Source: a virus. Taken from it: a stretch of DNA of 32,414 bases. The stretch is from the IMG/VR virus record IMGVR_UViG_3300006033_000077, positions 1 through 32,414 of that record, one strand, 5' to 3'. Positions within the stretch are counted from its first letter, which is position 1. Each line of letters begins with the position of its first letter. This document shows positions 6,959 to 32,382 of this stretch, in pieces. The notes beneath the pieces were generated by a model. The model did not search any database, was not told where the DNA came from, and saw nothing but the letters and a program-made list of their open reading frames with translations. Made by a program: the position numbers and the translations under genes.

Positions 6959-8599
6959 CATCATGTTTTGATAATCTATCTTATACCTATTCAAAACTGC
7001 ATACGCAATGATGAGTGCTACTGTTCCATCAATTCGCTTGTACTTGGAGTTAAGTTTTGATGGTTGAATATTGCCATTCAAGTCTACTTTGGCTTGGGTG
7101 TTAGACAAACACCATTTCAAGATCGGATTATTGTCGTAGTTGATCAGCTTATTCTTTAGATCTGCTTCCAGTTGTTTCATTGGTTCCGATAAGGAGTAGA
7201 CACCTTGACGAACTTTCTCCATGTTAAATCCTAGCTCTTCCATTTCTTTAATCCAATATTGAGAATTCCAGGGGTCGAATCCTACCCAAAGAGGTCTAAT
7301 CTGGTGTTCTTGAATCATTCTCATGAACCACTGAGTCACCAATGAAAAATCGTTCTGACTTCCATCTGTGAGTGTAATTAACCCTCGCTTAATCCAAATA
7401 TCATACGGTACGTTATCTTCTTCCATGCGTTTCTTAACAACATCGCTAGGCATAAAGAAATGTGCTAAAACATACTTCTTTGTATCATCCTTTTTCTGAA
7501 TGACCAGAACGGCTGCAGTTAAATCGGTAGTTGAAGATAAATCGACTCCACCGATAGCATAGGAGTTCTTGAGTGTATTTACTTCATATTTCGCTTCGTT
7601 ATTTAAGTCATCAAAAGACAACCATGCACCTTGATCCACTTGTTTGATATTGAAATCTTTACATAACATGGTCACTCTTGTTGAGTGGTCATTTTTTGAT
7701 TTGTTCATCACATCTTCGAGATACGAGGAGAGTTTTACCACACCTAAACTGGGATTAGATTTCACCCAATTCTTAGGGTCATCATATATTTCTTGGGTGT
7801 TGTCTTGGGTATATAACCAGGGAAGTACACGTTCATCAGTGATTTCGCCTTTTAGCATCTTTCTTGCATAGTCTAATTTGTTATCGAGGAATCCACCCAC
7901 TGTGGTTCCTTCAGTTGTGATGATGAAGATTAGTGGTTCCTTCTTTGTTGACTGACTTTGCTTGATGGCATCATATACTTTTGAATCTGTCATTTCATGC
8001 ACTTCATCAATACAACCAACCTCAATGTTATAACCATCTTTATTTCTGCTTTGAGCTGATAATTTCTTGATTTTGTTCTTGGTTTTCGGAGAATAGATGA
8101 AGAATATATTCTTTTTGCTTCGTTTCTCATTTGATAAAGCAGGGGATTGTTCACGCATGTTATTGATCTCTTCAAAGAGAATGTTCGCTTGCTCACTCGT
8201 GTTTGAAGCACATACGATATCTACTCCACCTTTAGAAAGAAAAAATTCAGCAAGGTCAATCCCTGCGATGAAGGTTGTCTTTCCATTTTTACGTGCAATC
8301 AGTAATATGACTTCATTAAATCGTCTTAATCCAGTCTCAGCAATCTTAAATCCATAGGCTGTTTGAATGATTGCCTTTTCCCAAAGTTCCAAGATGAAGG
8401 GTTGTCCATTGAATGGAGACTTCGTATGCTTGCAGAAGGTTTCGATAAAATCGATTCTCATGTTTCCTGGTTTTTCATCAAAGTCATATCGAGGGTTAAC
8501 CATATCATCCATCAGTTTTCGAAGGGTGCTCTTTAACTCCTCTCCAGCTAGTATTTCATTGGACATCACTTTTTGGTAGTACTCTATAAGATAGTTCAT
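6953..8599 (-). CDS. terL: Terminase large subunit (Terminase_1 type)
   Basis: 548 residues, full length. The ATPase has Walker A ARKNGKTT (102-109) and Walker B CIDEVHE (196-202); the C-terminal RNase H-like nuclease begins with GGVDLSSTTD (350-359, D353) and has VGFDPWNS. It translocates phage DNA into proheads and cuts it. Start ATG overlaps the terS stop (ATGA). Its TAA directly abuts the TGA of the convergent HEPN gene, leaving no room for a terminator between the two. Confidence 0.95.
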   Translation of the reverse strand: MNYLIEYYQKVMSNEILAGEELKSTLRKLMDDMVNPRYDFDEKPGNMRIDFIETFCKHTKSPFNGQPFILELWEKAIIQTAYGFKIAETGLRRFNEVILLIARKNGKTTFIAGIDLAEFFLSKGGVDIVCASNTSEQANILFEEINNMREQSPALSNEKRSKKNIFFIYSPKTKNKIKKLSAQSRNKDGYNIEVGCIDEVHEMTDSKVYDAIKQSQSTKKEPLIFIITTEGTTVGGFLDNKLDYARKMLKGEITDERVLPWLYTQDNTQEIYDDPKNWVKSNPSLGVVKLSSYLEDVMNKSKNDHSTRVTMLCKDFNIKQVDQGAWLSFDDLNNEAKYEVNTLKNSYAIGGVDLSSTTDLTAAVLVIQKKDDTKKYVLAHFFMPSDVVKKRMEEDNVPYDIWIKRGLITLTDGSQNDFSLVTQWFMRMIQEHQIRPLWVGFDPWNSQYWIKEMEELGFNMEKVRQGVYSLSEPMKQLEADLKNKLINYDNNPILKWCLSNTQAKVDLNGNIQPSKLNSKYKRIDGTVALIIAYAVLNRYKIDYQNMMS

Positions 8600-8934
8600 G
8601 CCATATTCGCTTTCTTGAGAAACTCATCAAAGGCATCATCACCATCAATCACGTTCTTACCCATGATTGAGTTGAGTGTCTTGATGACTGTTCCATACGA
8701 GTTGATAAGCTTAGTGTAGTATTTAGCAGCTTCTGTTTGTCTTTGAGCACCTTTGCTTGAAACTTGAACAGCACCATACTTTCGTATTTGTTCTTGAAGA
8801 ACACCAAGTTCAACCTTCATAAAAGCGGCTTGCTCAATAAGGTTATCGACTAGTTGAGTTTTAGTCTCATCGACCGATGAAAAAAGCGACCGAAGTCGCT
8901 CAATCTCAATATTCACATCTTTTATCTTAGACAT
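8596..8934 (-). CDS. terS: Terminase small subunit, P27 family
   Basis: 112 residues with the P27-type pattern: an N-terminal helix (IEIERLRSLFSS), LIEQAAFMKVELGVLQEQI (33-51), and AAKYYTKLINSYGTVIKTLN (69-88). It binds the packaging start site and hands DNA to TerL. GAGGTACTGAA precedes the ATG; the stop overlaps terL. In related phages an HNH nuclease gene sits directly upstream; here three genes separate them. Confidence 0.85.
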   Translation of the reverse strand: MSKIKDVNIEIERLRSLFSSVDETKTQLVDNLIEQAAFMKVELGVLQEQIRKYGAVQVSSKGAQRQTEAAKYYTKLINSYGTVIKTLNSIMGKNVIDGDDAFDEFLKKANMA

Positions 8935-10839: not shown

Positions 10840-11136
10840 TTACCGAGGTTTTTCTGGATTTATTAGGTTTCCATCTTTATCGAATCTAACTTTATTACTG
10901 AAACGTTCATGTTCTTGATTGTGACATTCTCTACAAAGTAGTTCCAAGTTATCTTGATTGAGGCTAACAGATGAATCATTCACATTCTCAACAGTCAGTC
11001 TTTCCTTGTGATGGACTTCGATTCCAATCTGTCCACATCGTTCACAAAGACTATTGACAGATACAATCTTAAGTTCACGAGCCGCAAGCCATACAGGTGA
11101 CTTATAGAAGTTATGCAGAACGTTTGGCTTTTTCAT
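10840..11136 (-). CDS. HNH endonuclease (packaging-associated)
   Basis: 98 residues with a complete HNH fold: zinc ligands C31-x2-C34 and C68-x2-C71, catalytic-site EVHHKE (40-45), N63 in DNLELLC, and HNQEH (72-76). Small HNH proteins beside terS are required for terminase cutting in several HK97-like cos phages. Here cargo genes split HNH from terS. Its start lies 26 bases inside the metK 3' end, with only a weak AAAGAAG site, so it is likely coupled to metK translation. Confidence 0.88.
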   Translation of the reverse strand: MKKPNVLHNFYKSPVWLAARELKIVSVNSLCERCGQIGIEVHHKERLTVENVNDSSVSLNQDNLELLCRECHNQEHERFSNKVRFDKDGNLINPEKPR

Positions 11137-12250
11137 AGGCTTCTTTTAGTTCAGCTGCTTTTGCTTCTACATGCTCCCATCGAACTGGTAAATCTTCACG
11201 ACCCATGTGTCCATAAGCTGCTAACTTTTGAAACTTCACTTTTTCAAACTCTAGCTCTTTTCTAATATTTGCTGGTGTAAAGTTAAAGTATTGTTTTACC
11301 AACTCAAGCAAGTCTTCATCAGCTAACCTACCCGTACCAAAGGTATCAATCGAAACAGCTACAGGGTTTGCTACTCCAATAGAATAGGACACACAAACTT
11401 CGCACGTGTCGGCCAATTCTGCCGCTACAAGGGCTTTTGCTACGTATCTGGCATAATAACTCGCACTGCGGTCAACCTTGCTTACGTCCTTACCAGAAAA
11501 GGCTCCACCACCATGTTTTGCGTATCCACCATAGGTATCAACTATAATCTTTCTACCGGTTAAACCAGAGTCTCCATAAGGTCCACCAATGACGAATGCA
11601 CCTGTAGGATTGATGAGAATATTGATACCAGATAGATCCTTACCAATCATTGGTTTGAGCACTTCTTCAATGATGATTTCTTTGGCAACGATTAGATTTG
11701 CATTCGGTCTTGTTTGTGCAGATACGATGATGGTATCGTAAGCGAATGGTTTACCATCTAAATACCTAACCGACACCTGACATTTGCCGTCCGGACCAAA
11801 GATGTGATTGTATTTCGTTTTACGAAGCGTATCTACTTCTTTAGCAATGTCATGTGCTACTACAATTGGAAGTGGCATCAGCTCAGGAGTCTCTTTGCAA
11901 GCGAAGCCATACATCATGCCCTGATCACCTGCACCTTGTTGATGATCTAGCGTTTCATTAACTCCTAGAGCAATGTCCGGTGATTGTTTGGATATTTTTT
12001 CAAGCACACAAAACTCATCGTCATAGCCAATGTCCTTAAGTACTTGTTTTGCGATTTCTGAATACTCAACTTTTGCTGTGGTTGTAACCTCACCAAAGAT
12101 AACGATTAAATCATCCTTGATGGCCGACTCAACTGCTACTCGTGCTAATGGATCTTGTTCCAAAATGGCATCGAGTATTGCATCACTGATTTGGTCACAT
12201 ATTTTATCTGGATGTCCACTAAAGACTGACTCGCTTGTTATGATTTTCAT
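11111..12250 (-). CDS. metK: S-adenosylmethionine synthetase
   Basis: 379 residues, full length, making SAM from methionine and ATP. Family marks are intact: GHPDK (12-16), GAGDQG (106-111), NPTGAFVIGGPYGDSGLTGR and GGGAFSGKDVSKVDRS. An AAAGGAAATAATCT site precedes the ATG. The gene overlaps HNH by 26 bases and lies in the same direction and neighbourhood as a phage ParB-methyltransferase, so it likely raises SAM for phage DNA methylation. It could be a captured host gene; nothing shows damage. Confidence 0.95.
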   Translation of the reverse strand: MKIITSESVFSGHPDKICDQISDAILDAILEQDPLARVAVESAIKDDLIVIFGEVTTTAKVEYSEIAKQVLKDIGYDDEFCVLEKISKQSPDIALGVNETLDHQQGAGDQGMMYGFACKETPELMPLPIVVAHDIAKEVDTLRKTKYNHIFGPDGKCQVSVRYLDGKPFAYDTIIVSAQTRPNANLIVAKEIIIEEVLKPMIGKDLSGINILINPTGAFVIGGPYGDSGLTGRKIIVDTYGGYAKHGGGAFSGKDVSKVDRSASYYARYVAKALVAAELADTCEVCVSYSIGVANPVAVSIDTFGTGRLADEDLLELVKQYFNFTPANIRKELEFEKVKFQKLAAYGHMGREDLPVRWEHVEAKAAELKEAYEKAKRSA

Positions 12251-12301: not shown

Positions 12302-12332
12302 ATCATTAAAGACAAAATACTTGGAGGATAAA

Positions 12333-12788
12333 ATGGAAATACTAAAACAAAAGTTTTTTTATAATGAGCTCGTACCATTACAATCTGTTACTGAAGAAAG
12401 ATCATATCAAACTTTTCCTAAGATTATTCATTATGTAGCTCTAGACATTTCTAAAGATGAGTATGATTTGAAAGAGAAACAATACATCTTTTGTGCAATT
12501 TATGAAAATTATATTAGAATTGTAGAAATGTGGGATGCTTATAGTCAAATTCATAGGCGCTTTGTAGCATATTGGCGTGGCAATGACTATGCTACTGCGA
12601 AGAGTTCATTAGATTTATTGTTGAATAGAAGGGAATATCAATTATTCACTAGAATTGATAATAAAACAGGAAAACTCATGGTAAAACTTGAACCTACTAC
12701 AATTGAATTACCTACTTATACTGAAAAAGATGTAAAGGATATATTAAAAGAGATTCGTATAAGAGAGCATTCAGACGATATTGAATAA
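12333..12788 (+). CDS. Unknown plus-strand cargo protein
   Basis: 151 residues from the ATG directly behind GGAGGATAAA; a TTG twelve bases earlier overlaps that site and is unlikely. The gene is opposite to all its neighbours, has its own extended -10 promoter and ends in a terminator, so it is a self-contained unit between metK and the methyltransferase. The protein is soluble and aromatic-rich (FCAIYENYIRIVEMWDAYSQ, then VAYWRGNDYATAKSS). I recognise no family. Moron-type candidates include an anti-restriction or exclusion protein, but this is inference from position only. Confidence 0.7.
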   Translation: MEILKQKFFYNELVPLQSVTEERSYQTFPKIIHYVALDISKDEYDLKEKQYIFCAIYENYIRIVEMWDAYSQIHRRFVAYWRGNDYATAKSSLDLLLNRREYQLFTRIDNKTGKLMVKLEPTTIELPTYTEKDVKDILKEIRIREHSDDIE

Positions 12789-12911: not shown

Positions 12912-14123
12912 CTATAGTGTTAAATTTTGAAAGTCCTCGATGGTACCAACTGGAATCTTCTCGCCATTTCGGATCAGATAGCATTCGTCACTTGATCCTT
13001 TGTATTTGATATAGCGTTTGACAATAACATCGACGAATCGTTCATCGAGTTCCATCAAGCGTGCTTTTCTTTGAAGCTGATCGGATGAGATTAAAGTTGA
13101 TCCAGAACCACCAAACAAGTCGAGAACAATTTCACCAACTCGAGATGAGTTCGCAATCGCTCTTCCACATAGTTCAAGAGGCTTCATTGTAGGATGTTCT
13201 TCATTTCGTTTGGGCTTGTTGTATTCCCAGATGGTATCTTGCGTGCGGTCATCAATAAAGTAATGAGCAGCACCTTCTCTCCATCCATAGAGGATTGGTT
13301 CATGTCTCCAGTGATAATCTTGTCTACCAAGAACAAGAGCATTCTTTACCCAAACCAAACACTCAGCTAACTTAAAGCCAGAGTTCTTGAATGCATTTCT
13401 AAAATTGAGTCCTTCAGTATCTGCATGACAAACATAGATGGCACCACCTGGTTTTGTATGATTGAACATATTCTGAAATGCACTATATAAAAAAAGATAG
13501 AAAGTATTATCTTCCATCTTGTCGTTTTTGATTTTTCCAGCTGTTCCTTCATAGTCAACATTGTAAGGCGGATCGGTAAACGTGAGGTCGACTTTGTCAT
13601 CTTGAATCAATCTATCTACGCTTTCCTTAATCGTTGCATCACCACACATGACTCTATGATTCCCAAGTAGGTAGATGTCATCTTTCTGCGTATAGGGTGT
13701 TTCGCTAATCTCTTCACTTGGATCGAAGTCGTCATCGGTAGCATTGTCTGGGACATCGGATTCTAAATCTTCAAATCCAAACTGAGACATATCCATTTCG
13801 ATGGATGCGAGTTCGCTCTCGAGTTTTGAAAAGTCCCATGTTGCAAGTTCTGCAGTTTTGTTATCTGCCAAACGAAAGGCCTTGATTTGCCCTTCTGTGA
13901 GGTCATCCGCAACAATGCAAGGAACACTTGCTATTCCTAGTTTAAGGCTCGCTTTGAGCCTCGTGTGGCCTGCGATAATCACATCATCTTTCGTAATTAC
14001 AATTGGTACTTTGAATCCGAATTCCTCTATACTATTCGCAACAGCATCGATGGCTGCCTCATTATTTCTTGGATTGTTTTCGTACTCTTTCAGTTCCGAT
14101 ACTTTCTTCATCACGATATTCAT
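12912..14123 (-). CDS. ParB-domain DNA methyltransferase
   Basis: 403 residues from the ATG at 14121-14123, which lies nine bases after GAGGAGG; two later Met codons are possible. Residues 1 to about 90 are a ParB/sulfiredoxin-like domain (NNPRNNE, AGHTRLKASLKLG). The rest is a beta-class amino-methyltransferase: DPPY (184-187) comes before HPTMKP (310-315) and DLFGGSG (335-341). It likely methylates adenine or N4-cytosine in phage DNA using SAM, perhaps to evade host restriction. It overlaps the upstream HTH gene by 62 bases. No cognate endonuclease is adjacent. Confidence 0.9.
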   Translation of the reverse strand: MNIVMKKVSELKEYENNPRNNEAAIDAVANSIEEFGFKVPIVITKDDVIIAGHTRLKASLKLGIASVPCIVADDLTEGQIKAFRLADNKTAELATWDFSKLESELASIEMDMSQFGFEDLESDVPDNATDDDFDPSEEISETPYTQKDDIYLLGNHRVMCGDATIKESVDRLIQDDKVDLTFTDPPYNVDYEGTAGKIKNDKMEDNTFYLFLYSAFQNMFNHTKPGGAIYVCHADTEGLNFRNAFKNSGFKLAECLVWVKNALVLGRQDYHWRHEPILYGWREGAAHYFIDDRTQDTIWEYNKPKRNEEHPTMKPLELCGRAIANSSRVGEIVLDLFGGSGSTLISSDQLQRKARLMELDERFVDVIVKRYIKYKGSSDECYLIRNGEKIPVGTIEDFQNLTL

Positions 14124-14583
14124 TGATCCATTCCTCCTCACCTTTTTCTAAGCGTTTAGCCATTAGCTCAATTTCCGCTTTCTTTTCGTTATACTCAATA
14201 CCAAACTTTGTAATGAGTAAGTATTTAATCGCTGCAATATCTGGAAGAGATTGTTTCTTGAACTTAGTGATACGTTTTTTAGTTCCAGTCTTGGTCTCTT
14301 CAATCACGGTTTGTGTTTCTTCGTATTCAAAACCTATCGCTCGTTGATACACAGCATCAAGGAGTTTATGTTTCAGTTCCTCATCTCCATACTGAAAAGC
14401 GTTATTCAATTTAGGATGAGCCTTCTTTAGTTTGATAATTGTTTTCTCGGTGATACCTAGATATTCAGCGACCTGTCTTTGGGTAGCTCTTTTGGATACC
14501 ATTTCTGATATCGATTTGAGTTTGTCATCAAGATATCCTGATGCTTCCCATTTTTCGTATAGGTCAAGCATTTTTCCTTTCAT
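14062..14583 (-). CDS. TerS-like HTH protein
   Basis: 173 residues with a helix-turn-helix at 35-56 (QRQVAEYLGITEKTIIKLKK), then DAVYQRAIGFEYEETQTVI and a Lys-rich C-terminus. The pattern resembles terminase-small-subunit-like DNA-binding proteins found ahead of phage methyltransferase genes. A P27 TerS already sits next to terL, so this one may be an accessory packaging factor or a regulator. Its ribosome site (TTGGAGTGATTAA) lies inside an 8-bp stem, so translation is probably controlled. It is cotranscribed with the methyltransferase. Confidence 0.7.
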   Translation of the reverse strand: MKGKMLDLYEKWEASGYLDDKLKSISEMVSKRATQRQVAEYLGITEKTIIKLKKAHPKLNNAFQYGDEELKHKLLDAVYQRAIGFEYEETQTVIEETKTGTKKRITKFKKQSLPDIAAIKYLLITKFGIEYNEKKAEIELMAKRLEKGEEEWINEYRDEESIGTERVRKQSKK

Positions 14584-14591
14584 TTAATCAC

Positions 14592-14637
14592 TCCAACTGT
14601 AGATAAAAAACTGTAATAACTCACCAGTTGGAATACT
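14592..14637 (-). promoter_or_regulatory. Shine-Dalgarno-sequestering stem with competing P1 strand
   Basis: On the RNA, TCCAACTG (from 14632-14625) pairs perfectly with CAGTTGGA (14599-14592), covering the GGAG ribosome site. The bases at 14637-14630 (AGTATTCC) can instead pair perfectly with GGAATACT at 14719-14712. The two stems share 14630-14632, so they exclude each other. Confidence 0.6.
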
Positions 14638-14657
14638 ACAAGTATCTCTGCAAAAAC

Positions 14658-14684
14658 AAAAAAAGAATCCATTTCTGAATTCTT
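14658..14684 (-). terminator. Candidate attenuator in the methyltransferase-operon leader
   Basis: The minus strand forms AAGAATTC-AGAAAT-GGATTCTT (8 bp including one G-U) followed by TTTTT-G-TTTTT. It lies 75 bases ahead of the TerS-like ATG and inside the long-range 14630-14637/14712-14719 stem. It may act as a conditional terminator or end a small RNA. Confidence 0.5.
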
Positions 14685-14695
14685 AATTGTTTCTA

Positions 14696-14719
14696 GGCTG
14701 GTTTTAAAGCCAGTATTCC
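14696..14719 (-). ncRNA. First arm of a riboswitch-like leader
   Basis: GGAATACT (5' strand of the outer stem) is followed at once by the hairpin GGCT-TTAAAACC-AGCC. Together with the attenuator hairpin and the closing strand at 14630-14637 this makes a three-way-junction-like fold of about 90 bases. No known riboswitch consensus is recognised. Confidence 0.45.
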
Positions 14720-14763
14720 ATAATTTGTTGCCTTGTGACTACACCTATGTACATTTTAATATT

Positions 14764-14815
14764 ATCATACCCTTGACAGTTTCACAATGGTTCATTGGGG
14801 TTCACAGTAGTTCAA
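14764..14815 (-). promoter_or_regulatory. Promoter with 10-bp-phased TGAAC repeats
   Basis: The minus strand carries TTGAAC, TGTGAAC, ATGAAC and TGTGAAA at about 10-base spacing, one helical turn, running into TTGTGA, 17 bases, TAATAT. Same-face repeats over and ahead of a -35 suggest a bound activator; the ArpU/RinA-like regulator encoded at 15395-15805 is a natural candidate. This would drive the leader and the TerS-like/methyltransferase operon. Confidence 0.45.
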
Positions 14816-15381: not shown

Positions 15382-15410
15382 ATTATATAATTAATTATTC
15401 AATTTGTATA
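15382..15410 (-). promoter_or_regulatory. Promoter of the TGA-containing small ORF
   Basis: The minus strand has TATACA (15405-15410), exactly 17 bases, then a perfect TATAAT (15382-15387), 54 bases before the ATG. Between them and the ATG is a GTGGT-(9)-ACCAC hairpin at about 15355-15375. The -35 lies inside the end of the late-regulator gene. Confidence 0.6.
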
Positions 15411-15805
15411 CCTGATAGAGCGGTTAAATGCCATCTCTTCACAGTTGATCTAGAAATATACATCTTATTTGCTATGACGTTCCAACTTTCCCAATCTATA
15501 TAACGATAGATGAGTAGTTTTTTATGTTCAATGTCACCAAGTTTATCAATAACTGATATGATTTCGCATTTGATTATTTGTAGTTGTTTTTCAAGGTCAG
15601 CAATTTGCAGCTTTTTTTCCAAAGCCTTATGAATCCACTTAGTGAAGGGTGCATCAAGACTTCTTGTTCCATCCACACGTATAGCATCAAAGTTCATGCC
15701 AGGAATTGAGTTCGCAAGTCGCTCATACTCTTTAATTTCGTCTTGCATGTGTTTTAAATCTAATTCCAAGTAATGATATCTACTTAGGTATTGCTTAACA
15801 TCCAT
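15395..15805 (-). CDS. ArpU/RinA-like (DUF1492-type) late transcription regulator
   Basis: 136 residues. The first 100 are helical with heptad-like character (LELDLKHMQDEIKEYERLA, then LEKKLQIADLEKQLQII); the C-terminus has LIYRYIDWESWNVIANKMYI followed by SRSTVKRWHLTAL, a sigma region 4-like helix-turn-helix. This layout is typical of ArpU/RinA/DUF1492 phage regulators that switch on packaging and structural operons. It stands at the end of the replication block and ahead of the structural block, as expected. AGGAGGAGTTGAG precedes the ATG. The phased repeats at 14764-14815 are a possible target. Confidence 0.78.
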   Translation of the reverse strand: MDVKQYLSRYHYLELDLKHMQDEIKEYERLANSIPGMNFDAIRVDGTRSLDAPFTKWIHKALEKKLQIADLEKQLQIIKCEIISVIDKLGDIEHKKLLIYRYIDWESWNVIANKMYISRSTVKRWHLTALSGIQIE

Positions 15806-24577: not shown

Positions 24578-26485
24578 TTACGGAAGTTGTGTTTTATTAG
24601 AGTCGAGTAGATATTTATTCCATCTATCAAGACCTTCATCATAATGTAAATCTATTAAATTACAATAGATCATGTCGTCTTCACTGTAGCTTTTGGTAAT
24701 GATTATCCCTGCTTTTTCCAATAGTAAGTAAGTTATTTTTGGATGAATTCTTAATCCAGCACATATTGCAAGTAATTTTTCTTTTGAGGGTTTACTTTCT
24801 CCACTTACATATGATTTTATTGTTTTATCTGTAATAGATGTTAGTTTGGAGATTTGATAGTAATTTGGTGTCCCATCAGGTTTTAAATACCCCAGTTCCT
24901 TGACAACTTCAAAAAGATCTTCATGGAATTCACCATTTAGTCTTTTATGCAAAGTCACAGCTTCTTTAGCATTTTCTATTTCATCTGCAAATTTCTCTAA
25001 TTCTTTATTGTTAGGTGAATCTTTATCATAATCTGCAGGAACATATTTATTTTTTGCTTCTGGTCTACAAAGAAAATTTGATGCTAAATAAGTTTTATAT
25101 TGTTCATTGTTTACTTGAACTTCTCTTTTTGAAAAAATAAATGCACATTCATCAAGATGCTCAAGTGCATATGGCGTTAATTGCTTTAGCCCTTGATTAT
25201 TTATTGTTACATACTTAGGCGAATTAACAACTACCAACCCATTAATATACGTTATTTTTCCTTCTTGAGACAACCTGAAAAGATTATCATTTGTTCTAAT
25301 TTGTATGACGGAATCTATAAAATCAACAACATAGGTTTGGTTTCTATTTAATTGTTTTGAATTAAATGAAAAGTCTGGTGTTTTCTCGCCATTGACATAG
25401 TTGTTTATTCCCTTTGCTTGATGATAACCTAAGTCAATAAGTCGAATTTTAGCTGCTAGTTTAGAAACTTTAAAAAATTCTGCTAACTGATCAATAACTA
25501 TTTGAAGTTTATATGCTTCGCTTTGAAGTGGAAATAGTTTGCCAATTTCATCTCTCAATTGATGATATTTCATTCTTGTGGTTTTAGCAGGCATAAGAAT
25601 TCTAGGAGCCAACATGGTTGCTTGCCATTCCATCAAATCAAACGCTTTTTGTTCTTCATTACTTAAAATATTATTTTCCTGTTTAACTCTATAAACAATC
25701 GATTTTGAAGAATTATTGATAATCTTTTGTAGTTCGAAAAATTTAGAATGCAATTCAATATGCACACATTCATGAATAATTGTGTTATTTATACTCCCCA
25801 AACCATTGATTTTATTAATATCTTTATTGATTAAAATTGAGTTTGGTTTAATTTTTTTGAGAACAATTTTCTTCTCTTTGTCATACACTTCTTCTTTTGA
25901 TTCGCTAAAAAAAGCTTTTCCGTATACTTCATTGCTTAATGGTGCATAATAAGCATGAACACCTATGTTTTGAAGTATATTTTTCATCGGTAATGCCATT
26001 GGAGTATCAAGTGCTTCTTTGTAATACTTTACTAGAAATGCTTCGGCTCTCTTTTCTAAATCTTCAGTGGGTATATATGGAATCGCATATTGTGATAGTG
26101 CTTTTTTATATGGATAAGGATCACTAATATATTCTTCAACATCGGCTATTTCAAAGTTTCTTATTCCATTATCGAATATACCAAAGCATGTGACAATAAA
26201 CCACAAGTTCTTCACATCATCTTCATAATCATTTTGTTTGTTTCCGGATATAATAAACTCAGCTGAAACAGTTATCTTAAACTCATCTTTATCTTGGAAA
26301 ATGTCATCCCTATAATAAATTTTTTCAATAGATATATCTTCAAGTTTGACATAGGTAGGATTAGGATTTGAATTTGTCCTGAAGTTTAATTGAGTTCGAT
26401 TAATTAAAAAGAATTTCTTAACTTCTTCAAATATATCATTGTAATAGAGATCATCTATATATTCTCTTATTGAATTATACTTCAC
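24578..26485 (-). CDS. Large ImmA/IrrE-like metalloprotease with C-terminal HTH
   Basis: 635 residues from a GTG behind AGGAGGAGGATTTT. Residues 1-150 are an unknown N-domain. The zinc protease motif HECVH is at 238-242, with Glu286 (MEWQATMLAPRILMP, 285-299) as third ligand, as in ImmA/IrrE (COG2856). The C-terminal 100 residues hold an XRE-like HTH (YYQISKLTSITDKTIKSYVS) and a helical tail. ImmA-type proteases cleave repressors; here protease and DNA-binding domain are in one protein, which suggests a sensor-regulator. It is second in an operon after the GIY-YIG gene. Confidence 0.8.
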   Translation of the reverse strand: MKYNSIREYIDDLYYNDIFEEVKKFFLINRTQLNFRTNSNPNPTYVKLEDISIEKIYYRDDIFQDKDEFKITVSAEFIISGNKQNDYEDDVKNLWFIVTCFGIFDNGIRNFEIADVEEYISDPYPYKKALSQYAIPYIPTEDLEKRAEAFLVKYYKEALDTPMALPMKNILQNIGVHAYYAPLSNEVYGKAFFSESKEEVYDKEKKIVLKKIKPNSILINKDINKINGLGSINNTIIHECVHIELHSKFFELQKIINNSSKSIVYRVKQENNILSNEEQKAFDLMEWQATMLAPRILMPAKTTRMKYHQLRDEIGKLFPLQSEAYKLQIVIDQLAEFFKVSKLAAKIRLIDLGYHQAKGINNYVNGEKTPDFSFNSKQLNRNQTYVVDFIDSVIQIRTNDNLFRLSQEGKITYINGLVVVNSPKYVTINNQGLKQLTPYALEHLDECAFIFSKREVQVNNEQYKTYLASNFLCRPEAKNKYVPADYDKDSPNNKELEKFADEIENAKEAVTLHKRLNGEFHEDLFEVVKELGYLKPDGTPNYYQISKLTSITDKTIKSYVSGESKPSKEKLLAICAGLRIHPKITYLLLEKAGIIITKSYSEDDMIYCNLIDLHYDEGLDRWNKYLLDSNKTQLP

Positions 26486-26511
26486 AAAATCCTCCTCCTA
26501 TACTTGAGGTA

Positions 26512-27357
26512 TTATCTTGGATACACTTCTTCTAAAGTTTTACCATCCTTTGTTTTCCATACTTTCCAACCACTATTACTACCAAGAGAAACGATATCAG
26601 CAGCTGTGCTTGGCGAATTAAATGCATAATCTTTTACAAACAATAAAACTCCATTAACTTCATCAATAATACCTTCATCAATTAGTTTATCTCTAAATTT
26701 TAATTCGTTAGATTCTTTCTTATGTTTTGTTGGCTCAGCTCGAGCAATTGAACCTTTAAGTACAATAAATTTCTCATCGATAAAAACACCTTGTGCATCC
26801 CACAGACTGTCTTTGCTCTTAAAATAAAATCTAACTTCTTCGGATAGATGTTCTTTTTCAACTTCAGGAACAAACACATAAAATCCTAATGCTTTAACTA
26901 ATGTCTTAATAGTCTCAAAGTAAATTAAACATTCATTCATCTTAGATTCTGGAATCGAGGTAAATTTCCCACCATTTCCATTTTCAACTTTAAATCGATC
27001 AGTTTCAATTGCTTTTTGAATCATGAGTTGTTCTAAGTAAGTTAAATGAGCTTTATCAAATGTACCACCTAAGTTTTGTATGGTGTAGACTCCATCCCAG
27101 AAGTCTTTTTTCTTTTTATGATCTTGCAGTCTAGTATAAATGTTTTCTGATTCACCAATGTAGACCATTCTATCACCAGAAGTATCAACACCAACTAAAA
27201 TATAGCAACCTATTGTATCAAGATCAACTTTACGATTATCAATTTCAGATTTTGTTACATATATTATTTTTATAGCTTCTGTAGTGATGCGTGCTTGGCT
27301 TACTTTAGTTGCGTCACCAGTCGGTAAATAGATTTCAATTGTCTTGGCTAAAATCAC
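26512..27357 (-). CDS. GIY-YIG nuclease with C-terminal DUF4357
   Basis: 281 residues from a GTG behind GAGGGGGGTTTATT. Catalytic marks: GCYILVG (50-56), VYIGES (65-70), Arg76 (IYTRLQDH), Glu109 (YLEQLMI) and Asn126. The C-terminal 65 residues, ELKFRDKLIDEGIID, LLFVKDYAFNSPSTAADIV, then NSGWKVWKTKDGKTLEEVY, match DUF4357, a domain often seen in genes near restriction systems. It likely cuts DNA or RNA as a defence effector. It has its own promoter and is followed 26 bases later by the ImmA/HTH gene. Confidence 0.85.
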   Translation of the reverse strand: MILAKTIEIYLPTGDATKVSQARITTEAIKIIYVTKSEIDNRKVDLDTIGCYILVGVDTSGDRMVYIGESENIYTRLQDHKKKKDFWDGVYTIQNLGGTFDKAHLTYLEQLMIQKAIETDRFKVENGNGGKFTSIPESKMNECLIYFETIKTLVKALGFYVFVPEVEKEHLSEEVRFYFKSKDSLWDAQGVFIDEKFIVLKGSIARAEPTKHKKESNELKFRDKLIDEGIIDEVNGVLLFVKDYAFNSPSTAADIVSLGSNSGWKVWKTKDGKTLEEVYPR

Positions 27358-27397
27358 AATAAACCCCCCTCAAAATTGTGGTTAATAAATTAATAAT

Positions 27398-27426
27398 ATT
27401 CTATCATTTTTTACATGTTTTGTATA
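27398..27426 (-). promoter_or_regulatory. Promoter of the GIY-YIG/ImmA operon
   Basis: TATACA (27421-27426), exactly 17 bases, TAGAAT (27398-27403) on the minus strand, placed after the res terminator and about 41 bases before the GTG. The -35 hexamer is the same as that of the TGA-containing small ORF. Confidence 0.6.
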
Positions 27427-27446
27427 TAATGCGGTTACGCGAACAC

Positions 27447-27484
27447 AAAAAAGCGACTCAACTCAATTAAGAGCTGGGTCGCTT
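27447..27484 (-). terminator. Terminator of the mod-res operon
   Basis: The minus strand forms AAGCGAC..AGCTC-TTAATT-GAG..GTCGCTT with small internal mismatches, then six T, 64 bases after the res stop. Confidence 0.85.
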
Positions 27485-27547
27485 CATTAATTATGGCAGT
27501 AAAATGATTTTCAATGGGACTACCAATAAATATCCTAAATGTATCAA

Positions 27548-30157
27548 TTACAAGGATCTTAAAATATCAAGAAAATCGTTTAATTTGTAGGCTCCAGGAA
27601 AATTCATATCCCTATCTTTATATACCATGTAGTATTTAAACTTGTTAGTAGATTCGTTTTGCCAAATTCTACCTAGTTCAGCCTTGCGTTGTGTTGATTC
27701 TCCAGCGAACTGTTCGCCCTTAACTTCTAGTAAAATGAATTTTCCACTCTCAGTGATAATCCAAAAATCAGGATAGTGATTTATAAAACCATTGATATGA
27801 AATTCATTTGGTTTTCTTTCCATTATTCTATGCCAACATTTTACATTGGGCATTCCAGCAACTAGTCGAATAATATCGAGTTCAGTATTATTTAAATCAT
27901 CCATTTCTTGATGATAAAATGATTTGCTAATAGCCGCTGTGGATTTGCTAGGTCCGATAGCATTTGGAAATTTGTAATTATATTTTACTACTATGCTTCC
28001 TTTTTCAATATTTTTCTTAAAAATTGCATATGCATGTTCTTCTTTTAAATATTCAATAAAAAGTTTTATTTTGTAAGAAACTGAAAACACATTATCTCTT
28101 ACAGCGAGAAGTTCATCTTGCTTTAAGGAATCAACAATTCTTTTAATATACATTTTTAACTCTGTTGCAGTTAAGCTGTTAATCCCCTCTAATTGCTTAT
28201 AAATAGTATCGACTAAAGTGCTCCTTAATCTCTCGTCAGGAACTTGAGACAAATAAGCTTTGAAGTGTGCTAGTTCTCTACCACTCATTTGCGAGGTTCT
28301 TACTCTAGACTCGTGACCCTGAGATTCTTCGATATCAATTTTAACAACTTCATCAGTGGTTTCTGATAGATTGGTCGGGATTGGTTTATCTTGTAATGAA
28401 AACTCGTCAAGTAAAATTTCTTTAGTTACTAGTGCTTCGGTTTCACTAAAGATGTTAGGGGAAACACTAGTAAAAAATTGAGGTATTTGGATTTCATCAA
28501 GAAGGCTTCTATATTCGTAGTTAACCTCAGCAACATTAATCAAATCTTTTTCTGCCCCAAAAATCCCGCCAAAATCAGTTTCTTCAGCTTGACTGCTATA
28601 ATTATTGTGTAAAACATTTGCTTGATTCAGCATATCGTTTAAACTAGAATTTTCCGTTTGATTCTTTTCTTGGTTTATTAGCTCAGTTTTCACATCTTCA
28701 ACATTAAACTCAAAGTCATTAGTATCTTCATCTGTCGTGGTTGCTTGACTATATACAGCCACTTGTTTTTGAGCTTCCTTCTCATCTTCTTGTATATCAA
28801 AAGCACGATAATCTTTATCTGAAAAACCTGCCGAATTCAGTCCAGACAAAACCTTTGCTAAAGTAGAATTGAAATCATTTGATGAGGTAATAACATATGA
28901 CATGTTTAAAAGGTTATTATCGTAATTTCTTACATATGGCTGTCTTAATATTCTTCCAACAATCTGTTCAACATCAACAGATGACGTTTTATTAGCCAAT
29001 GATGCAAGTATATAAGCAAATGGGCAGTCCCAACCTTCTTTTAATGCATTAACAGTAATAATGTATTTGATTTTACAGCTATCGCTAAGCAGATCAACAT
29101 TCTTTAACTCATTAATATTTGCCGTTTTAATTGCTATTTCCTCTTCTGGAATACCAATACTAGTTAATTTTTGTTTTAAGACCTCAAATGTGGTATTGTC
29201 TTCATCATTCTTTGGTTGTGCTTGAAATAAGATAATGGGACGTATGTATATTCCGGTAGTTGATTTGTTTTCTTGTGCAATCTTATCAATCTTTGATCTC
29301 AAGTCTAGAGCATCAATAATTACCTGTTTTTGAGATGGTCTATTATATACAATTACAGGCAGTTTTACCATTTTTTCTTTCTTGAGTTGCATAGCATCGA
29401 CAAAACTTATAACATTGCTATTTTTTCTTGGTGTTGCAGTCAAATCCAAAACAATAGAGGGATTAAGATCTTTTAACATTATCATACTTAAATCACTAGT
29501 AGCATTATGGCTCTCGTCAACAATTATTACTGGATTAAGGTGATTAAAGACCTGGATCAATGATGTTATATCTGCACCATCTACTGTAGGTTCATTTGAC
29601 TTATAGTCTTTCGTAAAACTAGATAAATTGCTGTTTTCCTGATATACTTTTCTTCCTTCTTTATTACGAATTCGAAAAGAATCAAAACTCATGACAAAAA
29701 TACTGAGCTGCTCGTTTACAGTGGTTACATTAAAATTTTGTCCATTTAATGCTTCAGATTTTGAATAAATCTCAATTCTAGATGAAAAATCACTATTTAA
29801 TTTTTGTCTATATGGATGATTTGCATTTTTTAGATTTGTAAGTGTTTGAGACAAAATGGTCTCAGAAGGAACCAACCATAATACAACTTTCTTATTTGCA
29901 GGTAAAAAATCAAAAATGGTTCTAATTGCTGAACTTGCGATAAAAGTTTTCCCACCACCTGTTGGTACTTTTATACAAATTTGGGGAGAGCCGTCAAGTT
30001 CATCAACGAATTTTTGTATCCCACCAAATCCAACATTAACACCTTTACTTAACCACAAATTTTCATACGCTTCCTTTGCACTATTTGTTAGTTTATATTG
30101 ATATAGATATTCACTAATATCTCGTAAAACTTTCTTTTGATAATTTTTTAACTCCAT
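27548..30157 (-). CDS. res: Type III restriction enzyme, Res subunit
   Basis: 869 residues. The SF2 translocase has Walker A PTGGGKT (65-71), VDESH (213-217), LDLTATPR (238-245), KEGWDCPFAY and a VEQIVGRILRQP motif VI. The C-terminal nuclease shows HYPDFW (794-799, D797) and LLEVKGEQ (E811, K813), a PD-(D/E)XK site typical of Res. Acting with Mod, it moves along DNA from unmodified sites in inverse orientation and cuts about 25 bases away. Length and motifs are complete, so the enzyme looks functional. It starts 12 bases after the mod stop. Confidence 0.92.
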   Translation of the reverse strand: MELKNYQKKVLRDISEYLYQYKLTNSAKEAYENLWLSKGVNVGFGGIQKFVDELDGSPQICIKVPTGGGKTFIASSAIRTIFDFLPANKKVVLWLVPSETILSQTLTNLKNANHPYRQKLNSDFSSRIEIYSKSEALNGQNFNVTTVNEQLSIFVMSFDSFRIRNKEGRKVYQENSNLSSFTKDYKSNEPTVDGADITSLIQVFNHLNPVIIVDESHNATSDLSMIMLKDLNPSIVLDLTATPRKNSNVISFVDAMQLKKEKMVKLPVIVYNRPSQKQVIIDALDLRSKIDKIAQENKSTTGIYIRPIILFQAQPKNDEDNTTFEVLKQKLTSIGIPEEEIAIKTANINELKNVDLLSDSCKIKYIITVNALKEGWDCPFAYILASLANKTSSVDVEQIVGRILRQPYVRNYDNNLLNMSYVITSSNDFNSTLAKVLSGLNSAGFSDKDYRAFDIQEDEKEAQKQVAVYSQATTTDEDTNDFEFNVEDVKTELINQEKNQTENSSLNDMLNQANVLHNNYSSQAEETDFGGIFGAEKDLINVAEVNYEYRSLLDEIQIPQFFTSVSPNIFSETEALVTKEILLDEFSLQDKPIPTNLSETTDEVVKIDIEESQGHESRVRTSQMSGRELAHFKAYLSQVPDERLRSTLVDTIYKQLEGINSLTATELKMYIKRIVDSLKQDELLAVRDNVFSVSYKIKLFIEYLKEEHAYAIFKKNIEKGSIVVKYNYKFPNAIGPSKSTAAISKSFYHQEMDDLNNTELDIIRLVAGMPNVKCWHRIMERKPNEFHINGFINHYPDFWIITESGKFILLEVKGEQFAGESTQRKAELGRIWQNESTNKFKYYMVYKDRDMNFPGAYKLNDFLDILRSL

Positions 30158-30168
30158 GAGAATCCCTC

Positions 30169-31743
30169 CTATAACCTAGATATGTCACGTGGTATTTTTT
30201 TGAAAACAATACCATATTTATCAAGCTCTTTGTAACCGATAGTGCATTTATCGGCATAAATAATATAAACTTCATTCTTTTTAACTAACTTTGATAAAAA
30301 ATCGTAATTCAAGTTCGTGACTTTATCCTTCTCATAGAAAAAATAATAATCTGTCAAATCCTTTGTACCTAGAAAATACTTATTATCTGTTTTGCTATCA
30401 ATACGTTGTTTTGTTTCCATAAAGAAAATGTACTCTCTTATTTTATCTTCATGAATTGATTCATTTAGATTACCATCTGCTTTGAACATTGGATCTCCAA
30501 GTTCATAAAAAGTAAAACTTGAATCCGGTGGAACATCATTCATCTCAATTGCTTTTTTCAATCTTTCAGCTGTTATAGTTTTAGCATAATCCATCAATTC
30601 TATTAAAATGAACTTTCTATTTCCATTGTCTTTATTTAGGTTCATGACTGAATGAGCAGTAGTACCAGATCCAGCAAATGAGTCTAAAACTGTTATATCG
30701 TTACCTAAATTAACCATTCTAATCAAAAATTCAATCAATGATGTAGGTTTTGGATAGTCAAAATTAGTTATCCCATATCTCTTTAATTCTTTCTTAGCAT
30801 CTTCATTTGTTCCAACACCTATAGAACTATCAATCAAGTTTTGCGGAATCTTTAACTGTTTTTCCCCTACTCTTTGATATCTTATAGAAAATGCTTTTGA
30901 CTTAATTAAAAAATAAGTTCCTTCACTAATTTCGCTCTCAATGGTGCTTTGAATCCACTTGAACTCACCTTCTAAGACTAAAGGTGTAAAGTTTACGCCA
31001 TTTTTCACTTCAACGGGTTCAATTAGCTTTACTTTATTTCCTTTAACAGAATTATATACACCATCTGGTATTTTGAACTGAACTGATTTTATTGGAAATA
31101 CTACCACTTTTCTTGGGTTGCCCGAGTTCAGTAATGGTGCATCTCCACCATCAATAAAACCTTGAGAAAATTGGTGGCTTGTATCTAAATTTTTCGCATA
31201 GCATATGACATATTCAACTTTTCTTCTTATTTTTTTTGATAAGGCAGGAGCTGTAGATGTTTTTTCCCAATGATAAATTCCAACGAAATTATTGGATCCA
31301 AAAATTTCATTCATTATGAGTAGCAAATTTGCTATTTCGTTATCATCGAGGCTTATAAAAATATATCCCCTTTGAGACAGCAACTTCTGAAGTAGTTTTA
31401 ATCGAGGATACATCATACATAGCCATTTATCATGTCTTGACAAATCTTCGGCATCAGCACCCACAACCTCACCTAGCCATTTAAGTATTCTTGGGTCATT
31501 TACATTATCGTTATAAATCCATTTCTCCTTACCAGTATTATAAGGGGGATCAATATATATAAAATCAATTCTACCTTCGTATTGTGGCAATAAAGATTTT
31601 AAAGCTTCTAGATTATCTCCATGAATGACCATGTTCTCACTACTATTACTATTAAATGTGTACTCTTCATTCAAAATTCTATACGGAATTTCTTGATGAT
31701 GATTGATTACTTTCTCTTTTCCAATCCATTCTAACGTAGGCAT
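30169..31743 (-). CDS. mod: Type III DNA methyltransferase, Mod subunit
   Basis: 524 residues, beta-class adenine methyltransferase: DPPYNTG (65-71) comes before DSFAGSGTT (354-362); residues about 190-330 between them are the target recognition region. It methylates one strand of an asymmetric site and forms the complex with Res. GGAGTGAGATA precedes the ATG. An extended -10 promoter and a hairpin leader lie upstream. No tandem repeat tract typical of phase-variable mod genes is seen in the coding region. Confidence 0.92.
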   Translation of the reverse strand: MPTLEWIGKEKVINHHQEIPYRILNEEYTFNSNSSENMVIHGDNLEALKSLLPQYEGRIDFIYIDPPYNTGKEKWIYNDNVNDPRILKWLGEVVGADAEDLSRHDKWLCMMYPRLKLLQKLLSQRGYIFISLDDNEIANLLLIMNEIFGSNNFVGIYHWEKTSTAPALSKKIRRKVEYVICYAKNLDTSHQFSQGFIDGGDAPLLNSGNPRKVVVFPIKSVQFKIPDGVYNSVKGNKVKLIEPVEVKNGVNFTPLVLEGEFKWIQSTIESEISEGTYFLIKSKAFSIRYQRVGEKQLKIPQNLIDSSIGVGTNEDAKKELKRYGITNFDYPKPTSLIEFLIRMVNLGNDITVLDSFAGSGTTAHSVMNLNKDNGNRKFILIELMDYAKTITAERLKKAIEMNDVPPDSSFTFYELGDPMFKADGNLNESIHEDKIREYIFFMETKQRIDSKTDNKYFLGTKDLTDYYFFYEKDKVTNLNYDFLSKLVKKNEVYIIYADKCTIGYKELDKYGIVFKKIPRDISRL

Positions 31744-32295: not shown

Positions 32296-32382
32296 TGGTG
32301 CGGACGATGAGATTTGAACTCACACGACATTAACTGTCACATGCCCCTCAAACATGCGTGTCTACCATTCCACCACGTCCGC
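32296..32382 (-). tRNA. tRNA-Leu (anticodon GAG), CCA encoded
   Basis: The minus strand folds as a class II tRNA: acceptor GCGGACG/CGTCCGC, D-arm with GGTAGA, anticodon stem CATGT/GCATG around TTGAGGG with anticodon GAG, a long variable arm (TGACAGTTAATGTCG) and T-arm GTGAG-TTCAAAT-CTCAT. Discriminator A and encoded CCA follow. Its 3' end faces the defence island, the usual side for tRNA-targeted integration, but no second copy of the 3' end is found at the left phage edge. Confidence 0.95.

Follow-up and report, generated by a model that had tools for sequence, protein, structure and literature searches.

A conserved four-helix leader RNA, candidate translational switch, in front of the terS-like gene of phage late operons

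A late operon opening with a terS-like gene runs on the minus strand of the IMG/VR virus record IMGVR_UViG_3300006033_000077, which has been analysed over its whole length of 32,414 nucleotides (hereafter the window). A sequence-only reading had described in front of this gene two stems excluding each other, one of which hides the Shine-Dalgarno site, and had suggested that SAM might be sensed. The locus thus raises the questions whether the leader is a genuine structured RNA, whether it switches the expression of the downstream genes, and which factor could trigger it.

The leader (14720-14589, minus strand) is made of a four-helix junction and a downstream competing stem, denominated S. All the elements of the sequence-only reading were found on the minus strand at the place assigned to them, but several had to be redrawn. 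The 8-bp stem around two hairpins is present, as are the hairpins; it closes, however, a four-helix junction, and is 9 bp long, because the outer pair U14720-A14629 extends the core pairing of GGAATACT (14719-14712) with AGTATTCC (14637-14630). Helices P3a and P4 had been missed, and the second U-stretch following hairpin P3b, counted as part of a T-run, is a strand of P3a. The stem hiding the Shine-Dalgarno site overlaps the 3' strand of P1 as described, but measures 11 bp, not 8. All features are listed in Table 1.

Table 1. Position of the leader elements and of the surrounding genes in the window
Feature	Position	Strand	Basis or remarks
DUF1492/ArpU-type late regulator, candidate activator of the repeats	15395..15805	-	Pfam DUF1492; PHROG 36 transcriptional regulator
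Four imperfect 10-bp direct repeats TGAAC..., probable late-activator site	14775..14814	-	sequence
Probable late promoter TTGTGA-17-TAATAT	14759..14787	-	by eye; spacing kept across relatives
Whole junction element P1-P4	14629..14720	-	covariance model match and RNAalifold consensus of 61 relatives
P1, 5' strand TGGAATACT	14712..14720	-	pairs with 14637-14629
P2 hairpin GGCT/AGCC	14696..14711 (14711-14708/14699-14696)	-	comparison
P3, basal helix P3a carrying P3b	14652..14694	-	comparison
P3a AGAAAC/GUUUUU	14694-14689/14657-14652	-	AU/GC and CG/UA/AU exchanges
P3b terminator-like hairpin AAGAATTC/GGATTCTT with U-run	14658..14684; stem 14684-14677/14670-14663; U-run 14662-14658	-	
P4 hairpin GCA/UGU, loop GANANANN	14638..14651 (14651-14649/14640-14638)	-	RNAalifold
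P1, 3' strand AGTATTCCA, common to P1 and the SD-hiding stem	14629..14637	-	sequence, comparison
Alternative stem S TATTCCAACTG/CAGTTGGAGTG over the SD	14589..14635 (14635-14625/14599-14589)	-	11 bp
Shine-Dalgarno GGAG of the terS-like gene	14591..14594	-	sequence
terS-like gene, directly under the leader	14062..14583	-	PHROG 309 terminase small subunit, E 4e-23
ParB-like/DNA methyltransferase gene, overlaps terS	12912..14141	-	Pfam N6_N4_Mtase and ParB_N; PHROG 498
metK, S-adenosylmethionine synthetase	11111..12250	-	three Pfam SAM synthetase domains
HNH	11136-10840	-	late operon
Small gene beside terL	8934-8596	-	PHROG 1066 (unknown function in PHROGs)
terL	8599-6953	-	late operon

Homologous leaders were collected by a terS search, which yielded 55 IMG/VR loci, by DNA patterns for the two halves of the leader, which yielded 55 and 61 stretches, and by an alignment-based search, which added further viral loci and host genomes. 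Distinct close leaders, 61 in all, were aligned without structural information, and a covariance model was built and then used to find divergent members; the E-values of the model are rough. The model finds a single match in the window (14628-14722, 102.9 bits). The folding energy of the window sequence, taken alone, is mildly unusual (z -2.4).

From the structure-blind alignment of the 61 leaders, RNAalifold returned P1, P2, P3a plus P3b, and P4 unprompted. Paired cells amount to 98.1% in this alignment (slid controls 36-52%), to 97.2% in a core set of 39 sequences, and to 97.9% in an alignment of 59 sequences (slid controls 34-54%), which is fitted to the model and, like the others, composed of relatives that are not independent. 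When the inferred substitutions were re-thrown on the tree, 76.5 ± 4.4% of the cells were paired, and none of 1000 runs of this tree-aware null reached the observed 97.9%. An all-column-pair covariation scan with the tree null had little power, and helices were therefore tested instead. P1 (97.3% paired vs 83.1 ± 7.7%, P=0.003), P2 (99.6% paired, P<0.001) and P3b (99.2% vs 57.9 ± 8.9%, P<0.001; double changes <0.001) all exceed the null, as do the double-changed cells of P3a (P<0.001) and P4 (P=0.009). Double-sided changes occur at 19 of the 27 pairs in the set of 59 sequences. P2 reads GACT/AGTC in L189 and GGGT/ACCC in L271 (L numbers designate leaders and loci), P4 is GCG/CGU in L265, L266, L272, L301 and L311, and P1 is rebuilt in L266 as GGAATAACT/AGTTATT. 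One P4 pair is G-C instead of A-U in 7/59 sequences. A G.U pair is invariant at one position of P3a and at one of P4 (59/59 sequences), which favours recognition of RNA rather than of DNA. In the aligned leaders, conservation is far higher at the junction nucleotides than in the periphery. The four-helix structure is very probably real. Both stems of the original proposal are maintained among relatives by compensatory changes, and for intact phages the comparison showed neither a lack of compensation nor a loss of the stems with the gene order kept.

Two other features of the leader were examined and discarded. A small ORF, such as ATGGAATACTGGCTNTAA, does not account for the conservation, as start and frame are not kept and loop lengths vary by non-multiples of three; on inspection, L189 was seen to swap a TGG codon for TGA while repairing P2. 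The local hairpin ATACT-TGT-AGTAT is not conserved beyond the clade of the window.

Since the 3' strand of P1 is also part of S, the P1 and S folds are mutually exclusive, as originally proposed. The energies of the two states differ by 1.2 kcal/mol in the window, and by 0-5 kcal/mol across all 61 leaders. The S duplex of the window (-14.8) is stronger than that of shuffled sequences (-4.7 ± 2.0, P=0.004). S recurs with different letters on the ribosome binding site (RBS) of L050 (TGTTCTAACTG/CGGTTAGGGTG, P 0.044); in L265, ATTTCACTTTC pairs with AGGAGGTGGAAA over the AGGAGG region (P 0.006), and duplexes of yet other sequence lie on the RBS of L337 (P 0.006) and L311 (P 0.040). Taken by itself, S is no better than chance in L119 (0.31), L190 (0.80), L262 (0.38), L272 (0.40) and L335 (0.43). 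Judging from the sequences, mutual exclusion of P1 and S appears conserved in most, not demonstrably all, lineages. In divergent leaders the RBS is often buried in the minimum-energy fold. In most L112- and L119-type leaders P1 is already favoured in the free RNA, and the resting state may therefore vary between lineages.

The RNA is kept under different promoters. The TGAAC repeats upstream of the late promoter recur in the clade of the window; they are too imperfect to be called by TRF, and the promoter is missed by a consensus promoter scan. Four imperfect direct repeats ahead of late promoters are the binding sites of Ltr regulators (PMC13123087), and the window shows a similar layout, with four repeats ahead of its late promoter and a DUF1492-type gene upstream of them. 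The likeness concerns the start of transcription, not the RNA, and other clades have the RNA without the repeats. In these, a short inverted repeat replaces the TGAAC units, and the promoter, located by eye, abuts P1. The RNA is thus not tied to one transcription system. The inverted repeats (TGCC..GGCA, TGCT..AGCA) are located just upstream of the -35 box in L112-, L119-, L015- and L261-type leaders.

All the intact leaders are found directly 5' of the same terS-like gene. Wherever an intact late operon is covered far enough downstream, the order terS, ParB-methyltransferase, metK, HNH, terL is kept, in phages whose MetK is ~90% down to ~50% identical; exceptions are the degraded prophages L369, L370, L372 and L373, and contigs that end early. 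Relatives occur in Tenericutes/Acholeplasma-type bacteria, which lack a cell wall, and divergent members were found by the covariance model in Mycoplasmatota genomes and in phages. Numerous metagenomic phages carry the RNA, as does at least one sequenced strain, Tenericutes bacterium MO-XQ, which also gave the only credible match among plasmids. The MO-XQ 'plasmid' (L119, CP017949.1, 93 kb) hosts RNA, terS, methyltransferase, metK and terL, and looks like a phage-plasmid; a second copy is located on the chromosome (L203). No leader similarity was detected among 50,697 phage records, and nothing above noise was found beyond Acholeplasma/Izemoplasma-type phages in the genome and phage collections searched. 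The 398 genomes of the Roseburia phylum gave only marginal matches, about the number expected by chance. The leader of a Roseburia prophage, L223 (TTTTATTTTGCAGAG), and Candidatus Scybalomonas L349 resemble the element, but their identity with it could not be established; both are kept as leads. At 1501-1589, L349 matches the model with 40.7 bits; the match has a perfect closing stem (GTAGAA/TTCTAC) and a hairpin plus U-run, and no ORF of at least 70 aa lies close downstream. In L361 the 5' half of the element precedes another ORF, and the 3' half is decayed.

The element fits no catalogued RNA. The sole gathering-level match of Rfam 15 to the window is a tRNA. Hits to the leader at E<=10 are at chance level and include no SAM family, divergent members behaving likewise, in keeping with the initial remark that no known SAM riboswitch is seen. 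SAM-I (S-box) riboswitches fold as a four-way junction including a kink-turn and a pseudoknot, and usually act through a terminator platform. The leader shares with them the four-helix junction and SAM-related neighbours, but P2 is a hairpin of 4-6 bp with a variable loop, partners of a kink-turn or pseudoknot were not seen, and the platform is the RBS. The aptamer-like junction core, and a P1 3' strand alternating with the stem over the Shine-Dalgarno site, are shared with translational riboswitches sequestering the RBS, from which the element differs in preceding one phage gene only and in having no Rfam family. The element shows two traits of riboswitches, a conserved aptamer-like domain in the 5' leader and an expression platform exclusive with the P1 state, the latter weak in some lineages. 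Autogenous leaders of the ribosomal-protein type are likewise tied to one operon and have structure that overlaps its first RBS; the candidate regulator would here be a terminase small subunit-like protein of phage, or a methyltransferase. Riboswitches have been called a rare feature in phages, and the glutamine riboswitch of phage Melnitz, which is phage-encoded, resembles a known bacterial class (PMC9004378). Like that riboswitch, the leader described here is a phage-borne structured cis element, but it fits no known class. It is best read, from sequence comparison, as a new class of cis-regulatory leader RNA, which is itself a known kind.

The mechanism that best accounts for these features is a translational on/off leader controlling the first late gene, to which we assign a probability of roughly two in three. 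When the trigger is missing, the RBS-hiding stem S would compete with P1 or prevail over it, and terS would be poorly translated. A factor, which may be a metabolite or a phage or host protein, would bind the conserved junction, stabilise P1, free the RBS and turn on terS; the methyltransferase would be turned on along with it by overlap or coupling. Transcription would be set separately by the late promoter, the TGAAC repeats being probably bound by the DUF1492/ArpU-like protein. P1 would correspond to the on state and S to the off state, a direction that we infer.

Other mechanisms must be weighed against the translational switch. Much of the covariation would be expected also of a leader that is always on or always tuned, and P1 is located, by eye, at the predicted 5' end of the mRNA in several clades, as expected if a static structure protected this end or fixed the translation rate; one strand is nevertheless kept complementary to two partners in divergent lineages, and a static leader is unlikely. 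Equally unlikely is a transcription attenuator, modelled on the antitermination systems of lambda (tR'/Q and put RNA), in which P3b and the U-run would stop late transcription unless a phage factor intervenes. The terminator-like hairpin noticed in the sequence-only reading lies right after the late promoter, and is indeed kept with strong compensation in nearly all members, but it is peripheral to the core. In L301 and L311, P3 consists of a plain 6-bp hairpin that lacks the U-run, and another terminator-like hairpin is found immediately 5' of the junction, so the terminator is separable from the latter. As the junction is 3' of the terminator in L301 and L311, and P1 and P4 form only after it, the junction cannot control the terminator. 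Moreover, the U-run is partly a strand of P3a, no conserved antiterminator pairing exclusive with the terminator, before the U-run, was detected in the RNAalifold consensus or on inspecting the alignments, and a consensus terminator scan does not list P3b. Next to terS one could also expect a packaging or recognition site acting at the level of DNA, such as cos/pac or a TerS binding site, and the leader contains short invariant sequence blocks. Yet compensatory changes between strands tens of nucleotides apart are a feature of RNA, P3b pairing is kept despite variable sequence, and the G.U pairs are invariant, which makes such a site very improbable.

The identity of the trigger is a distinct issue. 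In one version of the translational switch, the terS-like protein or the ParB-methyltransferase may bind the junction or S and adjust its own synthesis; this autogenous control, a sizeable possibility somewhat short of even odds, overlaps with the preferred reading. The association with one gene is strict in every intact member, as is usual in autogenous leaders but not in metabolite riboswitches, and favours a protein trigger at least as much as SAM; the terS-like gene and the methyltransferase are constant partners. TerS alone does not need the RNA, however, as homologues lacking it exist (L395 and L398). That these, effectively one lineage, also lack methyltransferase and metK agrees rather with a new class of metabolite riboswitch linked to SAM metabolism (SAM, SAH or methionine), which we regard as a doubtful alternative. 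In all the intact phages with sufficient coverage, the RNA is followed by both metK and a SAM-using methyltransferase gene, and the marked conservation of the junction nucleotides also speaks for this reading. On the other hand, Rfam SAM families do not match, the element never precedes host SAM genes in the genomes searched, and the RNA is missing in Streptococcus and Erysipelothrix phages with metK and methyltransferase, and in a phage of Faecalibacterium that carries metK and a gene with a ParB domain. In the window metK is several genes away from the RNA, and an ORF on the opposite strand (12321-12788) separates it from the methyltransferase. SAM sensing is possible, the hint coming solely from the metK/methyltransferase neighbourhood. 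A riboswitch gating packaging and DNA-modification genes on the SAM or SAH derived from the phage's own MetK and methyltransferase is slightly more doubtful still.

Structured RNAs gating phage late genes have been rarely described, and an explicit two-state model is available for the translational switch proposed here. The leader is a compact target in the search for a ligand or protein, and through it one can test whether a phage uses its own mRNA to time packaging and genome methylation. The L301:1427-1487 and L311:1427-1487 sequences, in which the junction has a minimal P3, represent a natural minimal version of the element.

Other features of the window deserve mention. Two genes are small-terminase candidates, the PHROG 309 terS (14062-14583) and the PHROG 1066 gene (8596-8934). 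The minus strand region 24578-31743 hosts a type III restriction-modification pair (MTase_III, 30169-31743; REase_III, 27548-30157), adjoined by a PDC-S14 candidate defence gene (26512-27357) and by a weakly capP-like gene (24578-26485). A tRNA-Leu (GAG) gene at 32296-32382, at the edge of the record, is a possible attachment site.
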